From positions 1 to 64,000 of the forward strand of contig JADLSH010000314.1 in NCBI GenBank assembly GCA_016169945.1: a stretch of 64,000 bases of DNA, given 5' to 3'. This document shows positions 4,718 through 50,200 of the stretch, one piece after another. Origin of the DNA: Trachythela sp. YZ-2020 (taxonomy: Eukaryota; Cnidaria; Anthozoa; Malacalcyonacea; Clavulariidae). The number at the start of each line of letters is the position of its first letter. Position 1 is the first letter of the stretch. Made by a program: the position numbers and the translations under genes. The notes beneath the pieces are model-generated. The model did no database searches. It was given only the letters and a program-made list of their open reading frames with translations, and was not told where the DNA came from.

Positions 4718-4817
4718 ACGGATTTTACCAACTTAACATATGTAGATGTTGATGTTGAGCCATAATTTAGATCTCATCCACTCAATTAAGTTTCCCCAGT
4801 TTATTTGTTTGTTGTAG

Positions 4818-20200: not shown

Positions 20201-23200
20201 CCTCTTATAATTGAATCCGCAGTTTCCAACTTGAGGTCAAAATTTTGACCCTGTGCCTGACTCGGATTTTTACCAAAAATAGTAGCAAATAAGTTGCCAT
20301 ATACGATTTCTTGATATTGTGCTCGGAATATGAAATGACTATTTGCTCGGACATTGATGCCCTCCTTGTGTTCAGCAAGTACAATTTTCTGGCAAGATCC
20401 ATCTTTTTCAATCTGAAAAATGATAAATAACAATTTCTACACCGTGACCAAGTAAAGTGGCAACTTTAAGGAATGGATAGGACTCTGTTAGTTTTCACAT
20501 GCAGAACTCCAGCGTAAGGCCAACGGCTATTAACGTACGCAGTAAATTAAACGAAAATTAAATAGATAAATATTTAAAGTTGTCAGGTACGTACTTTTAG
20601 ACCTTGTTCAAGGGCCTTTATGCTAAGGTGACATACGGGACCATTTACTTCCGGGCACCATTAAATAATCAGGCAACTAAGGGGGGAGAGGTTTTGCGTA
20701 CGTCTATTGCTTGATTGACGTAATTTCTATTTTTCTTTGCGTACAAGGGGGGGAGGAAGTACAATTTTCCAAATATTTTGCGTACGTACTAAAATGAATG
20801 ACACCTTTGCTCAAAATTTGGCACGACCCTGAAAACATTGGTACCGTACCAGATTTACCAGTGGTAGGACTACCTAAATAAAATAAGCGTAGTGTAAACG
20901 GGACTCGCATGCACGTTTTCCCGTCTTGTACAGTGTGTAAATCGGCTTTAGGTCGTTCGAAAACGATCATGAGTACAACCTTTCTGAATGGTGATAAGCC
21001 ATGAATTAGGTTTTGAAATTGTATTAACTTCATACCATGGTTAAAACAGGACACGGTTTCGAAACCATCACTGATTTTTCATCACTGCTAACTATGTTAG
21101 CGTTCTCCATGCTCTTACTCACTATATGACGTTCACGTAATTTGTGGTGTCCAAACGGGGTTGAGTTACATGCTGAGACATTCTATTCCGGGGAATGGCT
21201 CAACTGGAGATCGAACCCATAGTCTCTGGCTATATAAACCCGCTATTCAAACGAACCAGAAAACTTGGGATCGAATCGCAGTTTGTTAGTTAGTTAGTTA
21301 GCAACTTTATTTCACGAGGGTAAACACACATTACAGCCGAAGGCTGAAAAACTTGTGGCCCTCACTACACTAAGAATATTACAGGAAGCATGCACTATAA
21401 TTATTATATACTTATACTATGTTACAAACAGTAAAATGTTAAAAGTGATTTAAATCTAGATATTGTTCAGTTAAAAATGTTCGGTATTATTTGGATATTC
21501 GGAATTAAATTTTTCAGAATAATATTCAAATCATTCCTCGCAATTGTATGTTTTCTAATCACACCCCTTGATCAGCTAAATTTGGCCCCTTGGTCAAGCT
21601 AGTTATGAAACCGCTTATTGGTGGGAAGATATTATGCTGGAGTGTCGAAATTTCGATTTTGAATTAAATTTGTCCTGAAGTTACACTAACCATTCGCTTA
21701 AGCCAGAGTAGCGAAAACATGTCTGATATTATACCTGGCTGCCGTGAACTTTAATATATCAGTATCTCGAGTTCTTTAAATAGAAACTGTAAAGGACAAC
21801 GTAAGAGATTTCTATTTTAATCATAGCGCGCGTTCAAAGCGACAAATATACACAGTACATTACATTGACTGTTCTACTAAGGAATGAAAAGCTTTGTCTT
21901 TGTGCCCCTTGCAATTGCGAATTTGAAGAAATCCTCCGTGATTAAAATGTGGGAATTCTATAATCAATTCGTGACTGGCAACGCATTGAACTACCGCACA
22001 AATTGATTTGTTTCAATTATCGAAAGATCTGGGCTTACGGGCCGAAAACTTCGGATAAAATATCGTCGTGGTGTTTCCACAGCTAGTCAATATATTTGTT
22101 GCTATCCATGCAAACCCATAAAGAACCTATTACTACACGACTTTACTTACCTTTGCTAAAACAAATTGTTTTTCAAGCGCTTTTGCTTCCTGCAGGTGGC
22201 CCGGAATATCGACTACGTTTATCCCAGACGTGAAATGATATCCACCCCATTCGTTGTAGTAAATTCTTGCAATCCACGTAATTTTATCCAGGCAATTGGG
22301 AGTATCTGTTGTGTCTTTGCCCGTATTCGTCTTGGTGTCTTGCCTAACGCCAAGAGCCAATTGTCCAACTGAAATTAGGACATTGCCATTTCGTCCAATA
22401 GCAAGTGTGTTCCCTAAGTCAATATATATCTTCTTTTTATTTTTAGTTTCAAATACTGTAAACGGTGCGTAGCTAAGTTCATTTGCGGCTGATAAGTGGC
22501 GTAGCAATCGTCCATGGTCAAAGAAATTCGGTGCTTTTTCACCGGCTAATCCAATTGAACCTACGATCCTAGCGAAACTATAGTTAGCAGCGGGATGTTC
22601 GCCCATCATGTCAATATTGAAACATATAGATAGTTTTTGATTCGGTCCTATATTTTCTTTTAGTTGATTAACAAGTGTAGACTGAGGATTGTATTCGGAG
22701 TCGGAGAACTGGACATTGTTGAGAACACTTTGAAATCTCGAACCTTGACCATAATCATCGTTGGGCTCATCTATCATTTTATACCACAATGATTGGAATG
22801 AGGCACGTTCCATATCACCCTTGAAAAATCCTCCCACATCAATAGACATTCCATATATCTCCGAAACTCTTCCTTGAACTTCTATATCGAGATCAACAAT
22901 CTTTTCAGCAACCTTTCCGTTTGCTTGGTCTGAAAATAAAGAATAATGATGCTTTATCATCTACGAGGGAGCGTTCAATAATTAGGTCGCAGGGGGGAGG
23001 AGGGGGGGATACAAGGGGTAGCTTAAAGAAAATTGCAAGTTGAAATACAGGCGCGTCGTCCATAGGGGAGGCCATGTACTCAAGTTTTTATGATGGAAAA
23101 ATATGTTAATACCGTTCGTAAGATCAGATTTAAAACGCCAGTGTTCTCTTCTGAAATCTCCCAGAACAAAGAAAGTGCTATTTTTGAGATATTATACCCT

Positions 23201-26200: not shown

Positions 26201-29200
26201 ACACTACAGTAGCCCCCTGTTAGTATCGTTCATCGTTAATATTCATTAACATCGTTTGCAGTTTGCAGATTTGCAATTTGTGTCACATTCAACACTTCAC
26301 ATCGGATCTCCCACCCAGAGGACTGACAATAAGTTACATATACTAATGGGACTGCTCATTTTATAACATTACGTATTAATCCTACCATTCACGGGGGCTC
26401 CAGCAATAGGATCGGCGTGTGATAGATAAACACACCACCCTTCTTCATAGCAAACTCTTGTCACAGAGACATCTACCAGTCGAAATTCACTAGATCCTGG
26501 CGGATTCCAATTTTCATTGGTTATTTTAATGTCGGCGGTGGTGAATGTTTTCGTATCAAAGTTGTCAAACACGTTGTTTAGGGTCGCAGAATCTATTTGA
26601 ACTTTTCCTGCGAAGTGGATCCTCGGGAACATAATGTAGGAATGGTACTCTAGAAAGAAACAGTCATTTTGTTAGCAACATAATTCATTTCAACAAAACT
26701 TATAGGGTGTCGATTTTCCCATTAACGAATACGGAGTAAATGAGAAATGAAGAATTAAGATTTTGTAACTACATTGATTTCTTGAGATTTTTAAGCGAAA
26801 ATTGACACCGGCCAATATCATGATGTTAATCTTCCACTCACTTTCTTTCTTTGCCGTTACAGCCGTGTAGACACATTTTATTTCTCCTGTGGGATATTTC
26901 CTTGCTCGGCATTGTTGTCCAGTCACCTCACCTAGAAAGGAACAAAAAGAAGTAAATCCTCTCCCCGAATTTGGTTACTGTATAATATGTAAAGGTATAT
27001 ATATCTTTGTGATTCTCAATAATAAGCAAAGGAAATCATGACCGTGAAGGAATTAAAATTAATTTATTTCTGCATAGTGAATATTATCAGTCATGCCATG
27101 ATTTGGAGGTGAACCGCAATTTATCTCCAATGGAAAATCCACGTGCAATAGCTTTCGGTTTTGTCCTATAAAAAACTTTTAACATATGTAAAATCGAACG
27201 TCCATTAAAATACCAAAAACAAGGCAAAAAGCCTAAAATATACCGAATTCAAATAGAAATATCGTTTAACGGTTTAGCCTGTAGCTAACTTTAAATGTTT
27301 TAATGAAGAATCTTACTCTTCTTAAGCTTTGTCATATTAATCCTTCCTCGTGTCTTTAATTTGAAAACAAGGTGAGCGGATCAAACAAATTTCTTTGTTT
27401 TTTTCTATATTCAAGAATTGCTTGACGCGATTTTGAAGCTGCAGTCAGAATGACCTTTGCTCCTGACGTGTATTTTCGACCAATCAAAATGCTTCAAAAT
27501 GTTTTCAGAAGCGGACATCAAATTCGGAAGTATAAGAAACAAAGTTTTAGACCCACCAAAATGCTTCAAAATGTTTTCAGAGGTGAAAAGCAATGCACGG
27601 CAGCGGCCAGGCGACCAATCAGAACAATATACGGAACACATTTATGGGACAACGGCAGTTGGCAACAATTTTCCATGAATTCAAAGAACAAAGTGATTTT
27701 CGCCATGTTGAATGAAATTTGCATTTCAAACAAGCGAAATCCTTTGTAAAGTTCGTCCAACATTGGGCGATGGCATCATATGAGAAGTTCAGAACCTAAT
27801 ACTGCAATTAGCCATTCTACAAATTATTCACTCTTAGATTCATTCTACTATTGCGAAGAAACCTAAAAAAGCAATACTGCATGTACGTAAAATGTATACT
27901 GCATGTACGCATATGAAATACATTCTTACCATCGCTGTTAGTCGATGCTCTGTAAGCTATATATATTATATTGGATGAAATAAAAAAAGACAAATATGAA
28001 TAAATTAGTTTTGTAATATATAGTTTCAATAATTATACAATAATGTTATGCCCTATGGGGCTTCGGTGGCGCAGTTGACCTTTCACCTCTGAGTCTTGAG
28101 TTCGATCTCACTGAGGACATTACTCATCACACTCATGTGAAAAGAGTAAGTCAACGCTCTGACGAAAGTCGTAGGATTTCCTCGGACACTCCGGTTTCCT
28201 CCCATATAGGGAAAGTTAATTGGGTGGGCTAGGATATACAGATTAGGAAAGTAATATCACAATTGTTGTAAAATATATAGTGTAGGCTAAGTACATAATA
28301 TAGGTACTAAGCGAGATACTCGACGTAATCGGTCACTGAAAATCCCCAACGGGGAGTGAGCTGAATAATGTATGTATATGTATGTATGCAGACGGGAAAT
28401 GAAAAATTCTGGGAATCATGGTTTAGATAAAATCTGCTGAGGTCTAAATAGTAAATATCACATCAGGTTATGTCAAGGCTGCTTCCCAGTAATGAGTTTC
28501 ATACGTACGTATGGAAACAAGTTAATTTCATTCTCATATAATCAAATCGAGTTTGTGATTTGCGAGTCTGGGAGCTGGGAGTTGCGAGTTATACGATTCT
28601 GTGTGTTGCAGAGTCTGCCTGTTACGAGTCTCCTTATTGCGATTCTGTCAGTCTGTAATTGTTTCTGATATTTCATTGGGAATATATACAATGATAGTCC
28701 TTGAAGTCAGTTGATGAAAAGAAAAGCAGTTTCCAATAATAAATATAGGCGTTTTATGCAATGATATTGTAAACACAAAATAGACAATTAAGGAAGGAAC
28801 CTTCGGCAATCCGCTATCCTAAATGTGCATTGATTATTATACAACAAAATTACAAAAATATAGGCGCCAAGTCATATCAGGTTTTATATCTTCAATATTG
28901 TTGAATGTTGATTTTGACATGCATGTTTTTTCCCACGACTTTTGCAAGACACCACCAAAACTCAGTCGCAAACAGGTTTTTCACTTGTTCATAACTTTAT
29001 GATAACATGGAACATAAAAATAGGAGACGTCATCTTTTGCATCAATGAAATGCTTGCGTTTGCCCATTGCCATTGCTCTGACAAATCTTCGACGAAAGAA
29101 ATTAGAGATATATTTTCATGGTGAATTAGAACGCATGCTTGTAACTCGCAACTCACAGATTGGCAACTCACAGACTCGCAAAGTGGCCGACCCCTTTTTG

Positions 29201-32200
29201 CGACTTACCAGATATTTCAGCTGGTTATATAGCAACTTAATACGATAAACGTTGTCTTTGCTTCATAAACTTAATGTTTTAAACGGCACAGAACTTACGT
29301 TTTGGGCAAGAATATACTTTTGGACAATTGTTGAGGTTATTTGAATTTTTTCCTACGGAAACGAAATAACACTTATTATAGAATTAAATTCGGATATTAA
29401 AGTATTAAAATATAGTCTAACAAATAGTTCATTGCCTACATTTTCAAGGGTAATCTTTATACAAAGGTGAAGTAATACGAGCAACAAAATTGCTGCAACA
29501 TCCAACAAAAGTTGCTTTCAACGTTACTTATGCCTGAACATTTTTAATTAACATGCGTTGAAATCAGCTTTTGTTGCAAGTGCAGCAAATTTGCTGCCCG
29601 TAAGTACTTTGCCTTTAGTCAACTAAAACACACGCAGCTAGAGAAGTCCAGGACATGATCTTTGGAATATTTGAGTGCACAGATTTGCCTCCACATTATA
29701 GAACTTAAAATAGTTTACAGCAAGACCTTGGGTTCATATTTTCCCGTACAGCCCTCACTCTCTTGATTAGTAAGTGGTTATTATTATATGGCAAGTGCTT
29801 GTATTGGTGAATCTCGCAATCTGATTGGTCGCTGACGAGGCAGGATTTTCCCGTATTGCCCACGGGCAATACGGTATTCTTATTGCCCTGCGACGACTTG
29901 GACACATTTCAAACCAATAAAAGCATTAAAAAATCCTTAAAAATAATTTAAAACAATGAAAAATAAACGGAAAATACGGAAAAGGGATAACTACAAGGGA
30001 TAAAATCAAGTTTTGTTGGCTCAAGTCGAAATATTAAGGTAAATTTTACGATGTTTTTTAACTAAAACAGTCAAGAATATTTTTGTTTTTTCGAACATGC
30101 AAAGTTGTTTTTGTCCTTGATCCGATAGCTCAATATCACTATATTTTCTATTAATTTTATATTTTATTCTATAAATGGTACTGTAGAGTAGTTTTTTACT
30201 AAGCTAAGATTAGATAGATTTGTAAAAACTATAAGACAAATTCGTATCATTGAAATTATTTTGACATTTGAAAATGACCGGCTTTGAGTTTCGGACTTCG
30301 CCCTCGCGTGACCAATTTTTGGCAAAATGAATTGTTTTTTGTTGTCTGAAATGCCATATAATAAACAACTTACTAACTTCGACTGTTCGGTCTGTACGGT
30401 AAAATATCAAGCCTCGGTCTTGCTGTATTGACCTCGCTATCGCTCGGTCAATACAGCAAGACCTCAGCTTGATATTTTACCGTACAGACCTCACGCTCAG
30501 TTAGTAAGTAGTTAATATTCCGCCAACGCTGGAACCCCAAGTGTTAAGCCCGTTTTCCACTAGTCGAATTTGTTCGCGCGAAGCGAAGCGAAAAACAAAT
30601 TTCGGCAACGTGATTGGTTAGCGAAAAAATTTTCCGCGAAGAGCTTTTTCGCTAACCAATCACATTGCTGAATTTGTTTCTCGCTTCGCTTCGCGCGAAC
30701 AAATTCGCCTAGTGGAAAACGGGCTTTAGGCTTCCATCTATGCCTCCTATGTTTTTGGCCCTGTGCCTCTGGGGCCATAATTGTAAAAAGAAATCTTCCG
30801 CCTGTCCTTCTAAGGCACAAACGTCTATTGGTTTTCATGTTTTGCGTTCGCTTCTCTGGTTTTAACCAACCTTTTAATGAATTGTTAAAAACATCTCTTA
30901 ATTTCTTACCTATATTGTTACATTTCTCCTTGCAAGTCTCAACTAAAGGAAATAATAAACAAACACTGTTATAATTATTATTATAGAGAAGAACGGATCA
31001 TAAATATAAGCTAATATAATACTATTATGATTTTGATCATTTATTTATTATTATTCAATATTATTGTTATTGTTATTAAAATGTTTCTTAATTCCGACCA
31101 CAAATTGTAAATTTCGAAGAAGGAACCAGGTATATATATAATAATACATAAAATTTCTATAGTGCTAAATCGGCAATACTCTATAAAGCGCTTTACATGC
31201 AGGTCGCATTAAAATGTTACCAAAACCTACTTTACTTGCAAGAAAGTTTAAAAAGGTGCGTTCTTAAATGTCTTTTAAAAATATTAAAACTCGTTTCAAG
31301 TCTTTAAGTTGTCTGGTAAATTGCTCCATAATGTTGGCGCCGATATATCTTCAAAAACTTCGTCCACCTTTTGTAACCTTCTTAACCCTTGTGAAACCAA
31401 AACCTTTTCATCATCCGCTCTAGTGCCTTTGTTTTCACTGTTTTCAAGCAATTCGGTAAGTACTCTGGTACAGTTCCTTGGAGACACTTAAACACAAGGA
31501 ACAGAATTTGTACTCTATATCCTCTTTCTCACTGGTACTTTCTTGTTTCGGTGATTAATCTTGCAGCCAACTTTGGGACAAGATATAAGTTGTCCAAATC
31601 ACAATTTGGAAGCCCATATAGAATAGCATTACAATAGTCAAGCGCTGACGTACCATTATCTTCGCTGCATCTTCAGTAATATATACATTGTCTAATATTA
31701 TACATGTTACGGAGCTTGAAAAAACAACTTTTCGCAACAATACGAACATGATTCTTTAAGGTAAGCTTGTCATCTAATTCAACTCCTAAGAGAGTTACTG
31801 ATTCTGATTTAACAATACCTTCATTTCCAGTTGTCAGGAAAGGAAAATCAGAACAGTCTCGACGAGGACCTGTCAAAACCAGGAACTTTGTTTTATCCGA
31901 TCATCATTGAGCTTAATCATGTCATCCAAGTTTTTATGTCATGCATCAGGGACTCCATCCTATCAACGGTTCCAGTCGAAAGTAAAAGTCGAGAGTCGAG
32001 AGTAAAAAGTCGAGAGTCGAGAGTAAAAAGTCGAGAGTCGAGAGTAAAAAGTCGAGAGTCGAAAAATTCACTAGATAAGGCCATATTATAAGATGTAATG
32101 CTTAGATGCATACCCTAGCATAGTTTGCAGGATGAGACACGCTAAATATATCACGAAACATGAAAGACGTCAATTGAAAGTTTTGTAACATCTATTTCAA

Positions 32201-35200
32201 AATATCAATATTATAATACTATACTTTATATAATAACTTTTAACGTATAACAGAGCGTAACTACGCGATAGGTTGTCCGTTTTGGGACATCCTGTACTGT
32301 ACTGTACTGTACTGTACTGTAGAACGTACTATAATTGTTTTTTTCTATTTTTGGGTAATTGATTTATTATACTTCTGGGATTATATGTAATATGTAAACT
32401 TTAATATTTATTCCGCCTAATAATTCTCGCATATTTGGAAAAAAAATACAGGAATAGGGCTCGTTCAAGCGGTTTACATGTGCGTGAAAGCCAGGATATC
32501 GCCGAATATATCCGTTTCGCCATATTCAAACAGATGTGAAACACTAAAACCAATATATCGCAACTTTAAGAGCTGTGAAGTCGACTCGTAAGAGCGTGTG
32601 TTGGAGGTGAAAGTAACTTGAACCAACTCAAAATAAGGTGTTGGGTATTGTTATATACAGTTTGCCTTTGCCGCTGTTTCAGAGTTTGCTATTGATGGGT
32701 GACGGAAGAAATGTCGGGGGATCGTGCTTTTCTTCTTTTTCAACAGCTTTTAGCTCACGCTTTGTGAGAACAGGCGCTACACTCGTGCTTTTTTTCACAT
32801 GGGTTGAGTTATTGGCAAACTGACAATTTTCGGAGCGCATACATCTAATTCTATTGCATGAAATAGTATCACTATTGCGTATAACCAAACGCAGCCAAGA
32901 AGAAGTTTTTTTCAGAAAACTAGAAGTTTTTTTCCATAAAAAACGAAGTGCTTCAAGTTGCACTAGGGGACGAAATATACTCCGTTTAAATGGCCATGTG
33001 CGTGAAAGCCAGGCTGTCAGACTTTCTACATCGATCGGCTTCAAACTCATTGCCTGGAAAATGCCTGCCAAGAGTACACTTATATATTAAAGCATGCTTA
33101 TACTTATTTAAAACACTTGTCTTGATTTCATAGCTATTTGGTAATTGCTGCGGTAGCGAGCGAGCCTGAAGCGAGCGAGCGGACGCAGCAGATCTAATTT
33201 GTGTATATAGGGGATTTGTGAATGAATACTATTGTCATGCATATTATTGTCATGATATGGTCTCAGTTCTGAACGCACTAAGACAAATATTCGAATGGCA
33301 GTGGGTTGAAATGAGTTGTGCTTTACATGTAGGTGCATGACTAACATATCCATCAAAGTAAAAAAGAATGATGAAACAACACTTTCGTTTCATAGCTTTG
33401 CAAATGCAAAATTATTTCGCGCACATGTATATATTTTCAACACTTTTATGCACTACAAAAATATGCAAATTTTCTTGCGTAGCAGTGTCATATTACTCAT
33501 CGCAGTAAATATGGGTTTCATGTGGGAATTCCATGTGGAAGAACAATACAATACATGGAAAATATTGATATTTTGAAATAGATGTTACAAAACTTTCAAT
33601 TGACGTCTTTCATGTTTCGTGATATATTTAGCGTGTCTCATCCTGCAAACTATGCTAGGGTATGCATCTAAGTATTACATCTTATAATATGGCCTTATCT
33701 AGTGAATTTTTCGACTCTCGACTTTTTACTCTCGACTCTCGACTTTTTACTCTCGACTCTCGACTTTTACTCTCGACTCTCGACTTTTTACTCTCGACTT
33801 TCACTCTCGACTTTTAGATAAACTCTGAGGCGACAGGTTAACAATTTTTTATATAATCGGAAGTAAGGTAGGAATACAGTACATTGCTTTAGAAGCCGAG
33901 TTGGAATTGGATCGAGTTCACATGATTTTTTGTTAGTTAACCGAATAAGGTTTTCAATCTGGTGCTCAGAAACTGGGCTAAAATATTCCATCTTTTTGAC
34001 AGTTTTACAGCAATATTCGACTTCTTCTGTCAAATTATCAACAGTAGTCAGATCTGGTTGAGAGCGAATGATCTCAATTTTACGAACGTATCTAGTAAAT
34101 TTGAAAACTCACAAACGTTATGGTTTGTTGAATCATCTGTACGAAAGTTGAAATCTTCCATAATTATAAGGACCTCGCCGGGCAGCAACACTACATGTTC
34201 CAAATATATTGAAAACTCACTTAAAAGCAACGACACACTCAAGGCATTTACACTTGAAGGAGGAGGTCGGTAAACTACACCAACTCTTATCCACACGGAG
34301 TCAGATTTGAGAAGACGTTCAATATATTCAAATGAGGAGAAAGTGTTCACAGATTAAATCGTTTTCAAGTCAAGAGTCTCTTTGTGCAATATACCTACAC
34401 AACCACCCCTTTGGCCAGAACTCCGTGGAATATGAACAACCTTGTAGCCTTTTGGGCAAGAGTCCCTGATTAGACAAGGATCTTTCAATTGGCAGTCATG
34501 TTTCAGTAATACCTATCAAATCGTAGCCATCGTCAACAACATAATCCTTTAACTTAAAGCCATTTCTATTTAGTAAACGACAATTTACATGTGCCATTGT
34601 CATGGATTCGACTGGCCGTTTTGGTCTGTTAACCTCAGATAATGGCAAACATTGAATATGGGTCAGATTTGTAAAATCTGCATGACGAAAATAATTCTTG
34701 TTATACGATACTCTACGACAAGCCTGAACAGAAATTTGATGAATTCGCTGTTTTTTCCCAGCTCTAGATCCTCTTTACTTAAAAAGCATATGACTCTTTA
34801 ATAAGGCCAACAATATTGAAGAAACAGGAACCTTGATAAGCTGTGAACGAGAATAATTTATCGCAGAACCACCTATGCAAAACGAAGCCATAGTTTGCAA
34901 ATGCCCGTCATTTACAGAGATCTTACCCCAATTGCGCTAATTTCCATGATTAATAGCAGGTCCTGGATTAATTTATTAACTTCTCCAGTATATATAAAAA
35001 AATCCTATTTACAAAATTTGGCAGGAACACCACAACAGCATATTGCCAATTACTGCGGGTCCAATAATTAGTTTAAATATATAAGAACTGAAACAATAGC
35101 AAACAGTTAGTCAAACTAACGAACATGCAAACTAACAAACGTATTTGCTATAACGAACTACTAATAATATCTAATAACAGCACAATACAGTCGATACTGG

Positions 35201-38200
35201 ATATGCAAGACTACGCACAGAGTTGCATTTCAGGCATATACGGTAGTTTTAAATGTTCGAGGATTATCAGGGTCATGAAGATTGTCCGTGTCAAAATTTA
35301 GTTCATCTACAAGACTGTTCCATATTCGACAAGTTCTAATGAGGAATGATTGCTGGTAGGTAGTGGCTTTGCATTTACAAATAACATGTCGTTCTGTGTG
35401 TAGCACGAATGACGGGAAGAGCGGACATTTCCACGAAGCCATGGGTGATTTTGAAGAAGAGGGTAGAAAGAAGATGTACGGATTGTAATCTTGTACTATA
35501 GTTCACGTCTGTCGAAAATGGCAGGTTTAAAATATATTTAGTTGCGCGTCTCTGAGTTCTTTCTAACATGTTGATAAGTTCAATCGACTGCGGTGCCCAA
35601 ATCTGTGAGCCATAGCCGAAATGAGAGCGAACCAGTGCAAGATATAATGTTCGTCTTGGTGCTATATCTGTTACAAACATGGTATTCAGTTCTCCTGATG
35701 TAGTCTAGCAGTTTGTTTGCTTTCGACGCTTGTTGGTGTATTTGCGTTTCCCACGTAAGGTTAACTTGTAAGTTGACGTGATTGGCCTAATCTTTCTTGT
35801 TATTCGTTGCTGCTTACACTTTGATTCATTGAACGTCAGACCGGATATAGACGACCAGTGTTCTAAGTTTCTAAGATCATTTTGGAGTAACACAGCGTCG
35901 TCTTGACATTTGATACCCGAGAGTAACTTCGTATCGTCAGCAAACATTGCTACTTGGCTGGTCGTTACTGAATCGGGAAGGTCGTTGACATATAGCAGAA
36001 ACAGAGCTGGTCCAAGGATAGAGCCTTGCGGGACACCTGATGATATAGGAGTGTGTTTGAGGTAACACCAAGTACTGCTACACGTTGGCGACGGCCTTTT
36101 AAATAAGACTAACAGCAACTTCAGTAAACTACCACCAAAGCCGTAATTCCTCAATTTGGTGATCAATTTTTTAATGACTAATCCGGTCAAAAGCTTTAGA
36201 CCTATCAAGATAGATGGCATCCACCTGTCCTCCATTGGTATATAATCCTACAAATGTAGTCAAACACTTCTAAAAGATTTGTGACACACGATTTACCTAG
36301 AAGAAAGCCGTGGTGACACTTGTCTATAGTTGGGATAAGCGAGACTTGATGCACATGAGTACTATGCGTTCTAAAATTTTAGAAACGATCGACAACAGTG
36401 AGGTGAGTCTATAGTTTTTCGAGATGATCTTTATCACCTTTCTTATATAAGTGTACGACATTTGCTAGCTTCCATTCTTCCGGAACTGTTCCTGGACATA
36501 ATGATTTATTGAACAATTTACAAAGAGAGGGAACAATTATGGAGGCCATAATTTTGAGTAAGCTGGCTGGGATTTCATCCGGTCCGGTTGCTTTATTGGT
36601 AACGAGGGTTTTAAGTGTATATTCGACTTCAAGTTCACTTAGAATTAGTTCAGTCATGAAAAGGTCAGGACTTTATTCTTCAGATGGATCAGATAGGTTG
36701 TCAGATGCAAATGCTGGTGCAAAGTAAATATTGAACATTTCGACTATTTGAGCAGGCTTCATGGCCGTCGGTCTAACTGAGGATGTGTCAATTTGGTCGG
36801 TGAGGCTGGATGTTGCAGGCATAGAAATACAATCTGGGATGCTGCAGGTTTTTGATTTCTGTTTTAGGACAGACCAAAAGCGCTTAGGGTTGTTTGCAAA
36901 GCTATTGTTAATCGAGGAGAAACATTTATCACGACTTTCGCGCAGCAATCGTTTAACTTCTGAACGCATTCTCTTGGGAGCGGCTTTCAGTCTTCGTCGA
37001 ATGGAATGGAATCTTTTTCTTGATATGATGAAGAATATTGCTGTTAATCCATGGTAACGGATTCTGACCTCTCAGTTTCTTCTTCGGAATGAATGCAGAA
37101 ACAGTTGATAGAAAAGTTTCCTTCCAACGCTTCCAGTCGGTATCAATGTCATCAGACGATTCTGAGATAGTTGAAGACAAGTCCTTCTCTCGTAAGGCAG
37201 AAAACAGACCTTCAATATCACATTTTGTATAGTCATATTTTGTTCTGACAGACTTTCTTGTTTTTTTGACAAAAGCGGCAAAATGGTCGGTAAAAACAGA
37301 TGGTCGGTAAAAACGGATTCTCTTCTGGAGACAACATCTGCGTCAAGGTAACATGATCAGGCACATTTGTGATAACAATGTCCAGTATGTTATGTCCACG
37401 TGTGGGAATGTTGTTAAATTGAGATAAATATAATTATTCAGCAACTGCGCGAAGAAAAGTTATTTTACACCAGCTGCATTTTCCATCTTTTTCCATTGGA
37501 TGTTTGGAAGATTGAAGTTCCCCGCAATTACAATATTTTCATAGTGGTCACAGATGGTATGCAAAAAGGTGTTAAATTTATCCATCCAACACAGGTAAGC
37601 ATCAGGAGGACGGTAACAACAACAGTAAAGAATTTTCCTGTTCGTGACTGTTCTCAATTCAGTTGATAAAATTTCTAATTCGTGTAGATCATCTCCTAGA
37701 CAGATTTAAAATAATCCGTTTTTATGCCAATAAGGCCTTCACCATCGCATCGGTCTTTGCGATCTATTCTGAAAATGGTGAAAATGGTATAGTGTCATTC
37801 AGCCATTTTTCGTTCACACAAATAATATCAGCTAGAGTTTTCATTATACACGAGGTCTTGGAAGCGTTGGAGATTACAAACTGGTATGTTTAACATTTCA
37901 TCTCTATGAATGCTCTTTAGACTCCTTGCATTGAGGACTAAACACTTAACTTCGCTGTTTAGAGAACGATTCCTCTTCAAATTGCTACACAAACAAGGAC
38001 CAGGATTTGTAGCCACATCACCAGCGAGTAAAATGAGTAGAAAAACGTGAGATAGTTTTTTATACATTTGTAGGTTTTTAATCCATAACGATCGTTAAGC
38101 GGGTAGTTAAATTTCCTCATTCTCAAATCACGAGTAGCGGCCCAAACACAACACAGCTTTTTCGGTAAAATTGCGAGTTCAGAGTTGATTACAACGCCGT

Positions 38201-41200
38201 CTAAAGTAGGTTTGTTAGGAATATAGCATGGTTTTAGTTTTGAGCATAGCCAGAGAATTGTTAAAACAATCATAAAACTCTTTACTCCGTCCCTTATCCA
38301 GTTGAAATACCTTCGTAACTTTGATGAAATTTCCAGGCGAATTGCATGTAATTACTTCCATAATTAGTGGTGCACGCGCACCTTTCCAACCAAGCGCCCT
38401 GCTTCCAACGTTTAAACGTGCGCACCTTCGTCAGCATATACATGGCGTAATTGCTTGCGGACGTGTAGGGCAACCTTCCAACTGATCCAAAATCGACAAA
38501 TCGAACAACAAAAACACAAAATAAACAATGTAGAAACAAACAAAACTTTATACAAACTTCAAATTTCAACAGACGAATAACTTATCAAGCACTGTAGATG
38601 GTATTTGCTGAAATATCTTGATCGGATTAGTTAAAAATGCGAAAAAATCGTAGAGCACTTTCGTGCGCGACCGCAGTGGTCGCGTCACGTTACGTCACGC
38701 TTAGGATGGATATTCGTACATGTCGTAACATATATTAAAGCGCTGTGTGCGGATATACCGTTTTGCCGTGTTTTGACCATTTAGAGATGCAAAAACCAAT
38801 TCGATAACGAGAGTCCTTAATGCAATTAACATGAATTACAAGATATTCACATTACTTTCATTTGATGTAATAAGATTATCCAAAGAACGTCTACTAATAC
38901 CAATCGAAACTAAAATGCACAGAGCTCGGAATTACGTGGCAGCCATGTTGAGCGCCGTATACGCGCCGTATGGAACAAAATATTGCACACTGCAATTGAA
39001 TGAGTACGTTGATCCAATTTATTTTTGGTATTGTTAACCAATACCAAAAATAGGCCAGTTCATAGACATGCTTGCAACTATGCCGGAATGAAATATTTGT
39101 GTAATACAATTCCCTAGCTAATGTGCAGGAACGATGAGGACGATGGGCGCGGTTGATAAGATTTTAACGGCTAGTTTTGTCGAGATTAGCTCTTGCACAG
39201 CTTTGCTTACACCTTTGCATCCCTAGCATACACGACATACAACATAAGGCGGGTTCAAGTATAAATTAGTTCCCTTACGAAAATTTCACATATGATTTCA
39301 CTTGTTAAAACGACTTTTCACGTGTGAACTGTTCCAATTTCACGTATGAAATAATAATTTGATGAAATTGATTTTCACCTGTCAACCTTTACTTCCGTGT
39401 GTGATACAATATGTGAAACTTAAATGTGAATTTCACATATTACTATGAAATGAGCATTATCAAATGTTCCAGAATCCATTTCCAGTCGACAATTTTAGAA
39501 AATATAATATAATACAAAACATACTCTGAAGAAGAGCATCTTTTGCGCTCAAGATTTGAAATATAAACAAGATTGCACAATATGCGGTGATATATCGATT
39601 TTATTTCAAAATCATACTATGATTAATATCTTGAAATTTCACGAATGTCAGCAAGAAAGGTATGCTCAGCATGCATTTAATAAAATAATATGGAGTAAAA
39701 TGTCTACAATTTCATAAACTGACTAAATATAAAAATCCCTTTCGACACCGACGTTACATTTATAGATGACGTTGTACTAATTCGTCCTCTAGACATCTTC
39801 GGCATCCGCTAATTTTATTTTCCGGTATATATATACTTCAAAAAACAACATGTCGGATCCTGAAGAGGTTTAAAGGACGAAACTAGTATAACCGCAATTG
39901 GTCGGCCAAATTTATGGTTTCGGGAGTGACAAGTTCCTGTGTCCCAGGAAGACATTTCCCAGTCTATATATGCCGCATAATTAATAGGCGTTCTCTCTAT
40001 ATCTGGATGCCGGAGGCAAATTTCAAACTTTTTATACTCTTCACGTTGTTACTTTTTTCTCCCATTTATTATTACCTGTTGTTTTGCATGGTGTCATACA
40101 AGTTGTCCAAGGTGTCGGTGTTTCTATAAAAATATAATTGAAAATTAATGGTTACGAACAATTGTATAAAGGCATAAATACAGTGATCGAATACATTTAA
40201 ATTTTGACAAGAGAATTAAACAGTCAGTTAATGAAGCTTGGTTTTGCGATGTATACTAGAAAAACATGATATTTATCATAACATTTTCTGTAAAAACGTG
40301 GCAAATCTTTTTCATAATAATATACTAAAATTTGCAAAAATGTAAAATATACTCCGAAAATAGCATTTTGGTATTATATCGCAATATTGTATTATTTTAC
40401 ACATGGTTTTGACATTGTTGGTGTTACGTTATTATGATTGGTTATCTAATTCGTTTTTATCGTTAATGCATTAGCTTAATTTGTGTCTAGTTATTATACC
40501 ATAAAAGAAGCGTTTTTGTTTGTATCTTCCTACTAATTAACGTTCCTGATAATGGACTTTCAATAATATGTAGTTTCTGAACGTCTAACATGAAACTTCA
40601 AGCAACTTTCTATCAAACTTACCTGTACAGTCAGCACTTTTGCATTGGTCATAGTTTGCTAAAAAACAACGAGCCTTTCATCAATAACGGAACGAACTTT
40701 TACGTAAACATGCATAACTTTAGAATAATCTTGTTTCTGCCTGCAGACCGGTTTTAGGGGTTTTTCATTGTACAAAGTAAATCCGAATTTTTGGACATTC
40801 ATTGTTTGTCCAAAACAAAAAGGATCTATATAATCGTGAAGAGTACATTTTTTCACACAAATTGCGTATTCTAACTGCCGTTGCTACGGACAATAGGGTG
40901 TTTATTTTAATTACAAGATATTAGTAAATTCGATGACCTTTTAAAAGAAAATGTCATGCGCAAACAATTATTACGAATAGTCACGCACATTTTCCTAATT
41001 CGTTCATAATACTTGTTTCGACATCTTTCTAAATTGCCCAGCTAATTCAAAACACTTGCCCATTGTATGAGATAAATATATTGGTGTGACCGAAAATACT
41101 TTCGAGTTACTATCCACCTATCGAAAAGTCACTGTTATCATAGCAACGGTATTTGCATGAATCTAGCTTGTGAAAAATTTCAATCTGTTTAGATAATTTG

Positions 41201-44200
41201 ATATAAATGAGATGCTCCCTCTTTCAAAAAATATAATTGTCCAAAAATTCCATCTAAGTTGTAAATGTTCTATTTGTAAAACAAAAGTGTAAGGAGTAAA
41301 ACATTAAATGAAAGAAACATGAAAGAACTTCAGGATAATGAGTATATAAGTTTAGAACATTGAGGTTATTGAATATAACAGTGAATAAGTATCCAATTAT
41401 GTCTGTTCCAGTGACTATCTATTTTATGAACTATGTTAAAGCTGTCTGGTTGCAGAGGCCCCTGGCTACGACTGATTTATTTCATGCAGAATTTGGAATT
41501 CTACATAAATTTATGCTGTTTTCCCACCAAGTCAAATTATGAAGCTTTAAAATACGATCACCATGTATTTCACCAGCTTTCAATTATCATAATACAAAAA
41601 GGTAAAGTTAGCTACGTTTCATTAATTAACAATAACGAGTACAAGATGATTAGAAATTGACCAAATTGTGAAGATTTACTGAGTACCAGCTTCTCATAAA
41701 GAAATTTAAATTCACAATATCTTACCTGAATTTTCCGTACAGAGATCGCAAAATGTTTCTAAAATTGAAATTATACAAATAGACTTTCATACCATAAATT
41801 ATTTTATACCAGGAATTTAATAACTAGCTGCTTTGTGTAAAGTACGATATTGACAGTTTAAGTCACAAAAAGGAAATTTGTGATTGCTGATTATATCGCT
41901 ACTTTGTTAACACTATATGATCGTTTTAATTACCGCAACGAAAAATGCAAATTCTGCATGCAAACTTTATTCACTAACCTGACTCGTCAAATATTTGCGC
42001 ATTTGATACATATTACATTGTTGTACCTTACCTAACCGATCACAATTTGCTTTACACATCGTGTCTATAATATAATATATAGCATTCAGTTTGATTTCCG
42101 ATCATTTCCTGTTTGGCATTTACTACCAAGAAAGTGTGCAGCCAATTACAATCACTATCAATGTTCTCATGTTATGTCGATTCACAAAATACATGCTGAA
42201 AATAAACGACTCTCATTTAAGCTATAAACCTATAGAGCCTATATAAGTCTGAAACACTATAAAGGTTACTAAAACGGTTTGTTTACCAAGTTGTATTTTC
42301 TTTAATTAAATTGGTACAATAAAAGCCTATGTACAATACTACTCACATGCTTCCTGGCAGCAACCTTTGCAATTATCTGAATTTGAATATAAATGGTTTA
42401 AATAGAAGAATAAGTTCATGTAAGTAAAACGATCCCGAAGAAGCATGATAATGCTATAGGACTGATATATATTAAGTTTTACGAAATAGGGTTATATGAG
42501 AGATGAGTGTGTGGTCAGTTATTAGATAACTTTTCTAAAATTTAAACGTGCAATTCAACTACTCAGCGCAATTCAATTAGGCAAAGACTCGTGGTACTTG
42601 CAAAACGCAGTAAATTAAGGAAGAATTAAGAAAAAACACAGGATATCAATGTTGATTACATAACTGCATACAAGCACCAAATCAATAAACTGGTGGCCAA
42701 CATCATGTATTTCTTTATTGAAGGTAACAATTACTGTTTGGCACGGCTTATATATATTTATACATTCGAACCTCTATTAAACCCTCGGGAATGGCATTGT
42801 CGACATTTAATGTAAGAAGGGCAACAGTGGACATTGGGTGTGGTTAAGTGTCGTTCTTTTAAATAACAAGTAAAATTCAGTTTAAGAACATAAGTTGGTA
42901 AACGGTCATCTTGCGGTAAAAATTGTGCATAATAAAAAGCTTATTTTGTAAGGATTCCAATGGTGTTAATTTCATTGCTAGTGGGTAAATATTTGCAAAG
43001 GAGATCGTACTCAAAGTGCTCTTGCGACAACTTGCGACAACATAATTAAAATGCGACCGACCAGAAAGAGTTAACCTCTAATAGGCGGCCACCCTCCATT
43101 GAATGGCCACCGGTCAAAGTCCCAAAAACATTCCCTATCAATATTAACTGCAAATTATCCCTCTATTAAACGGCCAACTACGAGCTAATTTATGATGCTT
43201 AATTGGTATTGGGGTTTTCCTCTATTAAGCGGACAGCCTTATTTATTAGTGGGTCGACTATATAGTAAACTGTGATTTAAAAAAGCATGCGATTATGAAA
43301 TTGAAATGAAAATATTCGGGATATAGAATCTCACCAGCATCTGCATAACACTTCTTGCAACCATCTACATAAATTGAAAACAGTTCTATTTTAACAAACA
43401 TTTCAACTAATTCCTTCATTTGGGGGTTCTCAAGCGTCGAAGGTGGTGTTCGGGAACTGAAAAAATCCCATCCGTGGGCCGTTTCAATGGCCGTGTCATG
43501 AAGAATCATATCAATTAATATCACAGTCTAGACATTTGAAGTCGCCGCTATTCAGGAGATAGCATGAAGTGGCCATTCATTATCTTAATTACCACATGCA
43601 CTTTATGCTGATTGAATTAAATTGTAGGAATAACGAAAACGCCTACTTGATGATGGACGATGAATGACCAACGACATAGGAAACAATTAAGGCAACTGTA
43701 CCACACACAAGCAACAAAAATAATACGGGTTATGAACCAAAGCGACGTTTTCGGCATGAGTTGAGATATTATATCAAAATAGATATTCTGGATATATTTG
43801 TTCGATTGAGGCCAAGGAGCTACGGTTAAAATAAAAACATGCTAAAAGTTATACAAACGAATTTTATTGAATATTATTATTAGCTGAAATCTATGAATAA
43901 AATTAAGTTAAAAACCAATGCTGTGTGTAAAAAACAATTGATATGGCTAGAACAATAGGTCTGATAATTCGCTGCATTCCTGCAGTCACAGCGAATTATC
44001 AGACCCATTGTTCTAGCCATATCAATTGATTTTTACACACATATATGAAGCACTTATAACTAGACATTACAGAGTAACTTTATGTCTCTGATGATATATG
44101 TCGTAGTTCGACGAAAGCTAAGACACTAGATTTTTTAACTTTTTAACAAAATTCGTTTGTAAAACATTTAGCAGTTTTTATTCTAACAGTAACTCCTTGG

Positions 44201-47200
44201 TCTCAATCGAACAAATATTTACTTAATACAATGCTACTGAAGGACAACTACCTACGTTTAATTGAGACTCTATTATATCTGTAATTCAATATTCAATTTA
44301 AATATTTCCAAATTCGTCGTATTTTTTTATTTATCATTCATTTTTTTCAATTTATTATTCTTTATCGCATCCATCATAAAACCGTTGTTCATTATTCCGG
44401 ATTTTTTAAACTCAAATATTCATTTTGTACACGAATTCGAACCTCATCATTTATTATTCCGCTTCAACCCCCGAAAACATGAATCGTACAATACAACTAC
44501 TTTGGTAAAATAATCGAATAGCGTAGTTTCAATTATATTTTTCCAAGAAATCATTGTTTAGCAGCAGCAAATCGTGTGAGCATATATAGCCAATAGAATA
44601 AACAAGGTTAGGAATCTCAATGGAAATACAAGATAACTCAATTCTATGTTGGTTTACGTTTATGCAAAATTATGGTCGTTTCATCGTTACGTGTCTATTG
44701 TATTTTCGCCAAATCAGATATCACAGATGGGTACTTAAACCACATTGCTATGGTTGGTTGGGAAAAATACAATACACCACGTGACTATGAAACGACCATT
44801 TTCTTCATGAACCTAAACATAAAGTAAAAACATAGTAACGAGTTATATTATAAATCCGGCATCGAGTTTCCAAACAAAGTTTCGTATCCAAGAATGACTA
44901 AAGGTTCTTTCATAGTGAAAGGGCAAATTAAATAGAAATAAAATAACTAAGTCGCACCTCTCTCCAAGATTGTTTGCACCACTGGACAGAAACTTTTCTT
45001 TTCTGGGGCATACAGAATATCTTCACCGACTAAGAATTATAGATACAAAAACTTACTAACATTATTTTGTTATTTGATCGACTTTCACGCCGAGGAGCAC
45101 ACATAACATATGATAAAACATAACGTATGAAATAACCTAATCACCAATAATTTAAGTAAAAATTTCTATTATTCAACTAAATTTGCTCGTAAAAGAAACT
45201 TTTAAGTTTCGTATTCTTATAACGCTATCCATCCAATATTCATTATAAACTGGTGCATGCTGTTCATATTAATATATTCGGTAGGCTAGCTACTTCATTG
45301 TTTCATCGAATGGCCCTGTACAGGGTAATGATATCGAGTATGTCGAATATATCAAACAGACAGGGGTGATTCGATTAAAGCAGTTTGAAACGTCGAATGA
45401 ATTAGAGGCAAATTTAAAGATGATGTTTCCTACACGATTTTTTGGTGGCTGCAGCTTGTAGGTTGCTTTTGAACGAAATGGCTCCGATATGGGGGCGAAC
45501 ATTTTTATTTGAAACAGGAAATAGCGGATTTCACAATTTTTTCATAGATACGATTTATCCACACAGAAAAGATTAAGGGAACTTTTAACTAGTACATGTA
45601 GATGCAATTGCATGATATTCTGTGTATGGTGACAAAATGGTGCCGTAAGAAGTAGGCGACATGTGAATACGCTTGCGAAAAGTAATCAAGAACGACCAAG
45701 AACAAGAGAATAAGCATTTCAACTGAAGATCGCGGATAAATAATTTTTTCAGTATGAAACTTCAATGATAGTTGTTTGTACTAGAATAACTAGATTGCGA
45801 GGTCGTCGATGCAAATTCTATATGAGTGTATATAAATGCCAAATTATATATTGAAAAATAATATTCTCATTGCTTTCTTGCATTAAGTTTTATTTACCTT
45901 TGGTTTCACAACTTGGTCCTATATATTCTGTTTGACAAATACATTTGATTTTTCCGCCATGTACTTCGCATGTCCCATCATTTTTGCAAATATCGCTGGT
46001 GCAATCGCTAACTATAATATTAATGGAAAAGCGAGTTACGATGAAGTAAGTAATGGATCCGGATGGGACACAACTCTTCGACGATGAAAACCTATCTCTT
46101 CATAAATCTTAGCAGTTCTTTTGATGCCCTATTCTACCCATATATTTTTATAAGAGAGATAATTTGAACTATACATGCATGCGCTAAACCTTCGGCTATT
46201 TAACCAAACAACGAAAGTTCTTAAACGCTGTTCCAACATGTAGTATTTCGCATTAAAAACCGTTGACCAAATAATTGTAGCGAGATCAGGTAGCGATAGC
46301 TTCATTGACATTGCCGTATAAATTTGATGATCCCAAACAAATACTTTTAATTAAAAGGTTACTTTTAACTATGGAAATACCAATTTCGGAAATATAAACA
46401 GTAGAGTAAGTATGTTATTAAGCATTCTATTAGGTTCAATTAAATGTCAAATTCAATCTACGACAACGTTACGTAAAATCTTTCGAAACATTTCGCTGCG
46501 CGCCTTTCGGGCAAGAACTTCGACGTTTCGAGCGAACGGAAGGACCTTTGTCTAGAGGTTAGTAACTTCAGAGTATTTATCAGATAACACGTTTTGTTCG
46601 CCAGTCAAAATTGACACCACATTGGGATATTGCCCAAGATATTTGGAATTTTGTCCCCAATTAACTGGACAAAATGTGGCTCAAATGATAAGAAATTTGT
46701 TTCAAAATGTCGTAATAAGCCAACAGGAATTTAGCAATTTAGTTGTTCTTTGAAATACTCGGGCTGAAATATTTAAACGCAGCCCGGGCTGAAACTTGCC
46801 ATGTAATTGAGAAGCAATTTCAGCTTGGTTAGCCGGACCGTAAGCCCCGAAGAAGAGTGTTTCAAATCGTTTCACTTTTCGAACGTGCGGTGCCAGTGTG
46901 GGTAGAGTGTAACAGTTAGTAACTTCCAGACGAAGGGCCTTCGCTCGAAACGTCGAAGTTCTTATTGTGTTTTTCAGGTAGTTACACAACAGTCAACCGC
47001 CGTTTCTCTTTTACCTGGGGTTTCACAGTGAGTTCCAGTATATCCAGCGTCACATATGCAAGCAACATTTCCATCCAGGTCTGTCCTACACAATCCTGAA
47101 TTGCAAGGGTTGGAAGCTCTGCAGTCATCTAAAGATAATTAAGATACATTTAAAATTTAAAACTCACTATAATAAACAGGGCGTCTCAACATTCAGATTG

Positions 47201-50200
47201 GTCGGGCAACTTTTCTCACACGTGGAAAACACACCCATTTTTCTCGTCTTAGCGTATTGGCTGGTGTTTTCTCGCTCATATTTGTAAACATGGCATCCGC
47301 TTTGGCAAAGTCGCCGAAGTGGGACGGTTTTTTATTAATTTTACCCTAATGAAGCAACTATGTTGTCATCAAGAAAACACCCTGCAAGGTTGAAAATCGA
47401 AATAGTAAAGAAAAATCCCCTTCTTTGGAATCCTAACAAAAAAGAAGAAATTGATGGTAAGAAAAATTGAAAATCTCTCTTGAAGTTAGATATAATTGCT
47501 ATTCGCTTCAGCGTTGTTCGCCCTGAGCCTGTCAATGTCAAGTGTTTATCTCTAAATTAATATTCATCACAACTTACTCATAAATTATATTGGTTCGTTT
47601 GCAGCGATCCTTCACAAATCATAGAAGTCATACGCACTCACCAACCATAAAGTATCCTATAATTATTATCCATTTTACTATGACCAAAATAGCATCGCCA
47701 CTTAAAATTATACGCACTATATCGATTGACTAAAATTAAGAATAAGGAGGAGTTGTGAAGCTATGCCGGATTGCCCAAATAATTTTACGGTAAGCTAGAA
47801 TGGTCTGGACAGATTAGTCAGTAGCCTATATGTTATAGGCCTACTGCGAACGATCAGATCTACCGCAGTATATGGACTACGGCTGGTACTTAATTTCATA
47901 TTCACAATTCACATAATTTTTGTTCATTCTTAAATCAGAGTTGAGCACGCACCTTGCACTTTCATATCAACGTTTGTGGTTATGTCTTGACCGCAGGGAA
48001 ACTCTAAAAATAAAATATAAAGATATATGCCGCCGTTAACATCTGGAAACTTTCTCGAATAGCCAAACATTTCGCCTCGAACTGAACTAATTGCGCGGAT
48101 TGAATATTCGGTAATTGTCGGATTTGATATATTACATAAACTACAAGTCAGATTACCCAATATACCGTTATACATTATCAGTTGTGCATGATTTTGAGGT
48201 AAACCGCAATTGATCTCCAATGGAAAATCGATGTCCAATGGGTTTGATATTTGTTAGTCTTGTTACTTACCGAACTATTAAGAATAATCATGTGTTTGTG
48301 CTTCGTAAAAACTGCTTTCAACTTCGGCATTGTTTATAAATTTCGACGCCATTTTGAAAATAGTGAATTTTGCCAAATATTTTGAGAGAAAATTAATAAA
48401 AAAGCCAATAGTAATGTAATTAGCCAATGAAATTGCTTATCGCAGGTGAACATCAAAAGTAAACATCAAATCTAGCAGGTAAGCATCAAATCATTCCAGC
48501 AGTCCGTCGGCCAATCAAAACAGTTCTTATATCTCAGTTATGGGACAATAACACATGTCACATTATTGACGCATGCATTACCTATATAAATTATATATAC
48601 AATACATGAACGACATGTCACGTTACCTATATACTGTAATACATACATCAACTACAAATCACTTTACCTATAATTTCGCAATTGATTCCAGAGTATCCTG
48701 CTGCACAGCAACACTTGTACGACTCTCCGGCAGGAGTACATTTACCACCATGTTCACAGGGATTGTTGTCGCAAGTGACTGGATATTATAGAGAATATAT
48801 AGAACACATCAATGTTTAGAAAATACTAATGTTTAGTATCAATGTTTAGTAAATATCAATATCTAGAAAATATAGATGTTAAAAAATATCAATGTAAAGA
48901 AAACACCATAAGAAAACAAGGGGGAATTTCGTTTTGAGCCAATCAGCGCGTTTGTTTACATTTTGGCTCTCGATCAATCAGAATCCGTAAAATCCAAAAA
49001 CTTCAACAAAAGGAGTGCGAAAATATGAAACTGTTTTAAGCTTTCCGGACAAATCCTAATAAAACATGCTTAAATCTTGAATTTCCTCGTGGGCATTTTT
49101 TAATTTCGACTTAGAACGCGAGATATTTATGTTTGAATAACCGCGTTGCGAAACGCGTAATGTCGTGATATTTATTGCTGTCATTGATCACTTATATGAG
49201 AAAGTGCATGTGTATCGTTAGGTAATTTTGTAGAGTGTATCTTTATTTAATACTGTACACAGGTAATAATACAATTAAAATTATATTTAGAGTAATATCA
49301 TGATGAAATGCGTGTCGAAAGTGCGTTAAAGTTGTGGAAACGGAAGTCAAAATGTGATATCCGGCGCGCGAGAACACTTTGCACATTTCAGTACAAAAAG
49401 CTTCGAAACACTACAAAATTATGCAGATCAACGTAAGAAAACAATGTATTATATAATTAAATTTTGTTTATTGTACAACTTGTACATTTGTATACCTGCA
49501 TGTGTGGAGTGCTAGCTTATTTTATATGGGTTGAGAAGTAAGTTTCATTCTAATTCTACGATTTAATATTCATTTATTTTCAGTTTGCGGATATTTTAGA
49601 ATATTAAATGATCATTTACATTCCTTGATTTCCTTTCGATTAATTTAATGTGAAAGTAGTTCTCATTTATATTTCTGGTCTGGAGTTCGGTGTGTTCCAC
49701 CAATAAAGGGCCTGGGGTATGATTTCCCAATTTTTGTCATATTTCTAAACCTATCTTTCAAACATAGTGTCATATTTTTTTTTGCAGGTATCTTATTTTC
49801 AGTTTTTTATACTATATGTTAGCTCCCAAAGAAAGTGGGCAATGTTTTGTGTAAAGAAGATTAGTCCAAGTTTCCACGGTATGTGGATACAAGGGGCCAC
49901 TGTATCAAGTTTACTTCCAGTATCAAATTTTTGTTGATCGAAATATGCTTTAATATAATCTTTCCAAGACGCGCCTTGAATTGAAAAAGGTTGTGTTAAA
50001 GTGTACCATTGCCATAATAATCACATAAGCTTTGATAATGTAAACCATGCAGTTTAAGATAGTATTAAGGTGCCCTCATTTCTTATTCAGATACTGGCAC
50101 ATTCTGGAGAGTATCCCGGTGCCCCCTCCCCTTTTGGAAAACAGTGAGGAGAAAATACTCAAAATCCCTTGTGTGATATAGCATGCATTAACAAATACCA

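Follow-up and report, generated by a model that had tools for sequence, protein, structure and literature searches.

The window analysed here, the first 64,000 nucleotides (nt) of contig JADLSH010000314.1 of the cnidarian Trachythela sp. YZ-2020, carries a minus-strand gene in which ten very small exons, M2 to M11, lie between a run of EGF repeats and an enzyme part that matches PF12902. All ten have AG/GT borders, a length divisible by three and phase 1-1. Our leading interpretation, which we hold to be reasonably probable, is that they are genuine, normally included exons encoding one fixed, orphan, predicted disulfide-rich domain between the EGF repeats and the enzyme. On present evidence the array is genuine, conserved and out of the ordinary, and reads as a fixed cysteine domain of octocorals encoded by microexons, not as an adjustable linker.

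The original prediction had described ten consecutive microexons, mostly with one cysteine pair each (CKKC through CPKVYSC), and had regarded so finely divided a coding region as unusual. All ten were recovered on the minus strand with the cysteine motifs as claimed, and the judgement on the gene structure was upheld. The predicted lengths were exact for M3 to M10 (30, 30, 33, 33, 36, 48, 33 and 54 nt) but not for the two ends of the array. M2, given as 45 nt, is probably better read as 72 nt (45029-44958), because a protein of the octocoral Dendronephthya gigantea aligns across the extra residues and because forms of 72 and 78 nt exist at two further Trachythela loci, C22 and C155 respectively. 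M11, given as 18 nt, was replaced by a 27-nt exon: C155 has a 27-nt exon there, with no AG at the 18-nt position. Cysteines number 17 in M3-M10 (approximately 99 residues), 18 in M2-M10 and 20 from M2 through the following exon, X12.

To assess chance occurrence, a scan was made for open phase-1 segments, 18-60 nt long, that carry two or more cysteines and have acceptable splice sites (simple splice-site scores); thresholds were fixed after a first look at the data, and for M3 the scan kept a 51-nt extension of the exon. Eight segments were returned on the minus strand of 27000-45100 and none on the plus strand. No segments were found on either strand of 1-26000 or on the plus strand of 45000-64000, and 100 dinucleotide shuffles gave a mean of 0.04 and a maximum of 1. 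Short exons are easy to imagine within AT-rich introns, but the shuffles, the opposite strand and the paralogues exclude chance exons; with recurrence in three loci and one protein, cysteines kept, the probability that these are chance open segments or decaying exons is negligible. Donor scores were higher in exons of at most 60 nt (5.7; n = 10, M3-M11 and X16u) than in longer exons (3.2; n = 14; p = 0.008), all exons having been chosen with the same score. This is as expected for constitutive tiny exons. Acceptor scores of small and longer exons were alike (p = 0.86).

The array recurs elsewhere in the genome. Searching 578,087,698 bases in 396 contigs (the window being C233:1-64000) with the enzyme part revealed C155 and C22 as well as a more distant group, C244, C310, C243 and C3. 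Scans of the paralogue flanks, which sought phase 1-1 exons only, recovered all ten array exons in C155 (M2-M11: 78, 30, 30, 33, 33, 36, 48, 33, 57 and 27 nt) and nine of ten in C22 (M2-M10: 72, 30, 30, 33, 33, 42, 42, 30 and 51 nt). Lengths in the window, C155 and C22 differ only in threes (M2 72/78/72, M7 36/36/42, M8 48/48/42, M9 33/33/30 and M10 54/57/51). Three array-bearing loci were thus found in Trachythela. In C244, the sole distant-group locus examined, the scan found no array in 671001-678000, a stretch ending just past the enzyme start.

Among the matches listed, the protein closest to the window gene was D. gigantea LOC114515704 (P0001; 1488 residues), which is 70% identical across the enzyme part and has the same domain order and cysteine array. 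Every microexon peptide has an aligned counterpart in P0001, with the order kept; its D. gigantea paralogues P0002 and P0003 lack the array and contain EGF and fibronectin III modules. From M2 through X12 there are 20 cysteines in all four copies (window, C155, C22 and D. gigantea), 17 of them in M3-M10. Of the 21 alignment columns with a cysteine in at least one copy, 19 have it in all four; the other two columns reflect the second cysteine of M7, which is shifted by two residues. Identity at non-cysteine positions was 0.70 for the pair of window gene and C155; the remaining five of the six pairs gave 0.37-0.45. The enzyme part of D. gigantea is approximately 76% identical to C22, a figure from best, partly overlapping pieces with some exons missing, versus 70% to the window gene. 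C22 may therefore be the direct orthologue, with the window gene and C155 a later, faster-changing pair.

The original prediction had suggested that such an array would let linker length and disulfide content be adjusted, which was taken here to mean through copy number. Instead, the same pieces are present in the window gene, in C155, in C22 (without the cysteine-free M11) and in the D. gigantea protein, and cysteine counts are equal in every copy. Skipping or duplication of microexons to tune spacer length and cysteine content, as in schistosome micro-exon genes (MEGs), would be eased by the symmetry of all the exons, which keeps the frame on skipping, and is in line with the drift of exon lengths by whole codons between paralogues and the failure to find M11 in C22. 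We nevertheless regard an adjustable linker as unlikely, given the constancy of the pieces, the odd cysteine that skipping of M4 (three cysteines) or M2 (one cysteine) would leave, and the higher donor scores of the small exons.

Sequence searches returned no relatives of the array beyond these genes. When the genome was searched at DNA level for near-copies of 40560-42440 (40 of 103 candidates scored, 54 matches listed), the listed matches covered microexons, besides self, in C155 only; the other 50 rows fell in the intron between M6 and M7, and C22 is too diverged for this search. Protein searches, limited to proteins that are 0.55-1.75 times as long as the query and have short words in common with it, gave none of 195 candidates at E ≤ 0.1 for model residues 286-543 and, among 43 candidates for P0001 residues 360-520, P0001 only. 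M2-X12 had no Pfam match above cut-off, and the best PDB sequence match had E = 0.28.

We propose a domain of approximately 130 residues in which M2-M10 would contribute 18 cysteines, most microexons supplying one pair each, and X12 would close the structure with two more. Secreted and oxidised, it would probably form a stalk, mainly helical and stapled by disulfides, that keeps the enzyme at a distance from the EGF rod. The numbers of pieces and of cysteines are kept near constant, and variation is confined to loop residues and to the gain or loss of whole codons. A single-sequence AlphaFold model of the D. gigantea segment placed helices at approximately M4-M9 and strands at M11-X12, with exons mapped by eye.

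The cysteines could alternatively bind metal. Under this explanation the CxxC and CKxxC pairs hold metal, perhaps for the adjoining ferritin-like di-metal centre, in place of forming disulfides; the density of 17 cysteines in about 99 residues, the lysine that often comes next and the neighbouring PF12902 domain would all fit. However, the hydrophobic N-terminus of P0001 (by eye) predicts secretion, which with the EGF neighbours implies an oxidising setting; the cysteine count is even; and no CxC motif occurs from M2 to X12 in the three Trachythela genes. We therefore consider metal binding improbable.

Several observations weigh against a fixed, normally included domain. A nested 45-nt form of M2, from 45002, is also open in all three Trachythela genes; its acceptor at C22 scores 6.5, against 3.8 for the acceptor of the 72-nt form, so that both forms may be used. 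M11 was not found in C22 in the scan of the fetched flanks for phase 1-1 exons. P0001 is a database-predicted protein, known here as protein only. The AlphaFold model, built from one sequence, is weak (mean predicted local distance difference test score 62) and in fold comparison matches only generic helical hairpins.

Nonsynonymous (dN) and synonymous (dS) change was compared using enzyme codons from X13, X14, X15, X17 and X18, without X16u and with gapped and stop codons dropped. Array codons for C155 were from M2-M11, with 22 codons of M2 aligned from its 3' end; a first count went without M2, M3 and one M10 codon. For C22 only the equal-length exons M2-M6 were counted and M7-M10 were dropped. 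Between the window gene and C155, the enzyme (939 codons) showed a dS of 0.080, a dN of 0.048 and a ratio of 0.60. Because of these values we favour C155 as a paralogue over a divergent haplotype, a question that does not affect the status of C22. The array (121 codons) showed a dS of 0.152, a dN of 0.144 and a ratio of 0.95, with 1.35 at non-cysteine codons; the first count gave 0.82 and 1.26. Against C22, enzyme dS was 0.679 and dN 0.116 (871 codons), and in the array (61 codons) dN was 0.326 and the ratio 0.43, with 0.93 at non-cysteine codons.

Protein change in the array was greater than in every equal-size overlapping enzyme window: it was reached by 0 of 818 for C155, 0 of 810 for C22 and 0 of 849 for the C155 array without M2 and M3. 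The dN/dS ratio was ordinary for C155, reached by 299 of 818 enzyme windows, and outstanding for C22 (0 of 810). In the comparison of the window gene with C155, the ten microexons had differences at 54 of 396 sites, and chained aligned introns at 640 of 8484 (0.075). When all 100-nt flanks were globally aligned, 230 of 1907 flank sites differed versus 55 of 396 in the microexons (p = 0.31), a result decided by 3 of the 20 flanks, which have more than 30% mismatch. EGF exon E7 was equally fast (15 of 114 sites).

A secreted recognition or effector region that diversifies rapidly on a cysteine scaffold under positive selection would account for the extent of protein change, for the non-cysteine ratios and for the excess over chained introns. 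We doubt this explanation: whole-array ratios are below 1 for both loci, the C155 ratio is common among enzyme windows though that of C22 is not, the excess over introns is gone with the globally aligned flanks, E7 changes as fast, and the tests were post hoc. Positive selection was thus suggested by dN and by the chained introns but was not robust to the choice of flanks. As judged from these alignments, change in the loops of the proposed fixed domain is close to neutral in rate, or perhaps faster.

The eleven introns around and between M2-M11 are without exception phase 1, although the gene also has phase 0 introns; this speaks against introns having been inserted at random into a complete domain. 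Shuffled extracellular domains are as a rule class 1-1 modules (PMC8001218). Exon-to-exon similarity beyond cysteine was tested with 1000 shuffles of pooled residues, cysteine positions held. The window gene was at chance (z = -0.43; similarity at least as high in 661 of 1000 shuffles), z was 0.81 for C22 and 1.40 for D. gigantea, and C155 exceeded chance (z = 2.71; 8 of 1000). Tandem duplication of a microexon, which the original prediction had drawn from the shared wording of the exons, is thus favoured by C155 alone. Lysine directly follows the first cysteine in 18 of 32 exon-by-gene cells, its frequency at non-cysteine positions being 0.19. Counterpart exons across genes were clearly alike (mean score 18 vs 1.3). 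A search of 40000-45100 for direct repeats of at least 24 nt found a single family, with two copies of 29 nt that are 72% identical, and recent tandem duplication was rejected on this result and on the chance-level similarity within the window gene. Any duplication within the array was probably old, possibly before the gene family split. Since every array exon is phase 1-1, we think it most probable that the array grew from symmetric modules ahead of that split and not by random intron insertion.

A more specific proposal, which we offer tentatively and think less likely than not to hold in full, is that the domain is octocoral-specific and was built up pair by pair, each symmetric phase 1-1 microexon bringing in its cysteines as a disulfide staple. 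The building units would then be marked by the exon borders, with piece number frozen and loops changing at or above the neutral rate. If so, a free-living cnidarian would be using micro-exon gene architecture constitutively, within a large enzyme outside the cell.

Similar split-gene styles are known from schistosome MEGs and aphid bicycle genes. In the available parts of PMC10526429 and PMC4350168, MEGs are rows of tiny symmetric exons, mostly multiples of three, with long introns, in secreted-protein genes of fast protein evolution. Tiny symmetric exons in a row are present here (M3-M11, 27-54 nt, phase 1-1), but microexons form most of the MEG coding region and, in the window gene, only the 396 nt of M2-M11 in approximately 4.3 kb of modelled coding sequence. 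VAL-6 likewise joins a microexon stretch to an ordinary domain, though a different domain in another phylum, and the passage describing it does not mention cysteine pairs. As far as the excerpt of PMC9168663 goes, bicycle genes share many small internal one-phase exons, cysteine motifs and rapid divergence; their internal exons start at codon position 2 (phase 1 introns), as do all array exons. They differ in having a CYC motif and hundreds of putative salivary effectors, versus three array loci in Trachythela. No CYC motif occurs from M2 to X12 in the three Trachythela genes or in the D. gigantea exon peptides, and the array protein searches gave no sequence relation to MEGs, VAL-6 or bicycle genes. 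Plant microexon clusters also conserve tiny coding exons as gene structure, but these are 1-15 nt and of mixed phases, and the available excerpt mentions no cysteine array (PMC8831610). Searches of open-licence PubMed Central (PMC) texts returned no match on microexon arrays in cnidarians or octocorals.

The use made of this style in the window gene differs: the array is near-frozen in piece number and forms one part of a multidomain enzyme. Direct comparison is possible of its exon borders, its cysteine pairs and its paralogues of differing age, which makes the array a tractable case for the origin of a new disulfide-rich domain. It is also a case for how 30-nt exons with introns of up to 9 kb are recognised.

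The modelled part of the gene spans 62724-13952 (approximately 49 kb), encodes approximately 1,420 residues and reads, 5' to 3', E0-E7, M2-M11, X12 and X13-X18 (Table 1), the frame closing with TAA at 13952. Its first exon is upstream of the modelled part. X13 was the terminal exon in a first gene model, which was overturned by the PF12902 exons found further downstream. PF12902 (ferritin-like) matched the enzyme part in two pieces (106.5 and 46.9 bits; cut-off 22.3). VioB (iminophenyl-pyruvate dimer synthase, TIGR04492) also belongs among PF12902 proteins; the enzyme part scored 19.4 bits against its cut-off of 1250. With the 1000-residue enzyme part as query, 4329 candidates yielded 134 matching proteins; the 120 that were listed include proteins of corals, lancelets, an acorn worm and a sponge as well as of many bacteria. 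Searches of open-licence PMC for coral proteins of the VioB-like or ferritin-like kind turned up no text on the window gene.

Table 1. Modelled exons of the window gene in 5' to 3' order.
Exon	Position	Strand	Description	Basis
E0	62653..62724	-	short EGF-like exon, 72 nt, 4 Cys, uncertain	sequence and splice signals
E1	60601..60720	-	EGF exon	splice scan; Pfam EGF in joined EGF stretch
E2	58483..58596	-	EGF exon	splice scan; Pfam EGF
E3	53547..53660	-	EGF exon	splice scan; Pfam EGF
E4	52426..52542	-	EGF exon	splice scan; Pfam EGF
E5	48668..48778	-	EGF exon	splice scan; Pfam EGF
E6	47015..47128	-	EGF exon	splice scan; Pfam EGF
E7	45898..46011	-	EGF exon, last ahead of array	splice scan; counterpart in C155
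M2	44958..45029	-	probably 72 nt (45-nt form from 45002 nested within)	D. gigantea alignment; C22 72 nt, C155 78 nt
M3	43335..43364	-	30 nt, CKKC	splice scan; C22 and C155 counterparts
M4	42347..42376	-	30 nt, CKGCC	splice scan; paralogue counterparts
M5	42032..42064	-	33 nt, CKANC	splice scan; paralogue counterparts
M6	41726..41758	-	33 nt, CDLC	splice scan; paralogue counterparts
M7	40623..40658	-	36 nt, CKSADC	splice scan; paralogue counterparts
M8	40076..40123	-	48 nt, CMTPC	splice scan; paralogue counterparts
M9	30910..30942	-	33 nt, CKEKC	splice scan; paralogue counterpart
M10	29299..29352	-	54 nt, CPKVYSC	splice scan; paralogue counterpart
M11	27930..27956	-	27 nt, no Cys	27-nt exon in C155, 18-nt acceptor absent there
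X12	26842..26931	-	90 nt, 2 Cys, closes cysteine-rich region	67% identical to D. gigantea; splice scan
X13	26386..26649	-	first exon of enzyme part	enzyme-part gene model
X14	22151..22929	-	enzyme part	enzyme-part gene model
X15	19311..20412	-	first half of PF12902	Pfam match
X16u	18246..18278	-	separate 33-nt phase 1-1 microexon between the two PF12902 halves	high-scoring splice sites
X17	17180..17592	-	second half of PF12902, weak acceptor score	Pfam match
X18	13952..14275	-	last modelled exon, with TAA stop	gene model

PF00008 (EGF) matched seven stretches of the joined EGF part (107.7 bits; cut-off 21.5). Past the window end lie an EGF-like frame (approximately 64529-64404; Pfam EGF) and, upstream of the EGF exons, a thyroglobulin type-1 frame (67331-67029, minus strand, 37 bits); both may or may not belong to the window gene, and Pfam gives no thyroglobulin type-1 domain in P0001. 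Tandem repeats of 76-78 bp occupy the introns around E1 and E2 (58808-59422 and 60268-60656). Their translation is similar to the 3' half of E1, which is the pattern that a minisatellite would show if it had grown out of the end of an EGF exon.

Putative mobile elements were also seen in the introns and flanks. The intron just upstream of M11 contains a dispersed repeat of approximately 145 bases (28056-28200), which recurs on many contigs in at least 39 further copies, 85-90% identical (40 of 1489 candidates scored); tRNA-like A and B boxes, identified by eye, suggest that it is perhaps a short interspersed element. Within the long M8-M9 intron, 31970-33815 resembles a transposon with long terminal inverted repeats: it has matching inverted ends, with TCGAGAGT-type runs and a longer inverted match (by eye). 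A near-perfect inverted repeat at 43905-44045 in the M2-M3 intron (by eye) is possibly a short inverted-repeat element. Open frames resembling reverse transcriptases of the non-LTR (long terminal repeat) type and their partners were noted by eye on the minus strand, in introns and downstream, at 33791-38094, 23637-25042 and 1218-4732. An ABC transporter ATPase domain (PF00005, 86 bits) at 7581-8522 on the plus strand marks a neighbouring gene on the opposite strand.

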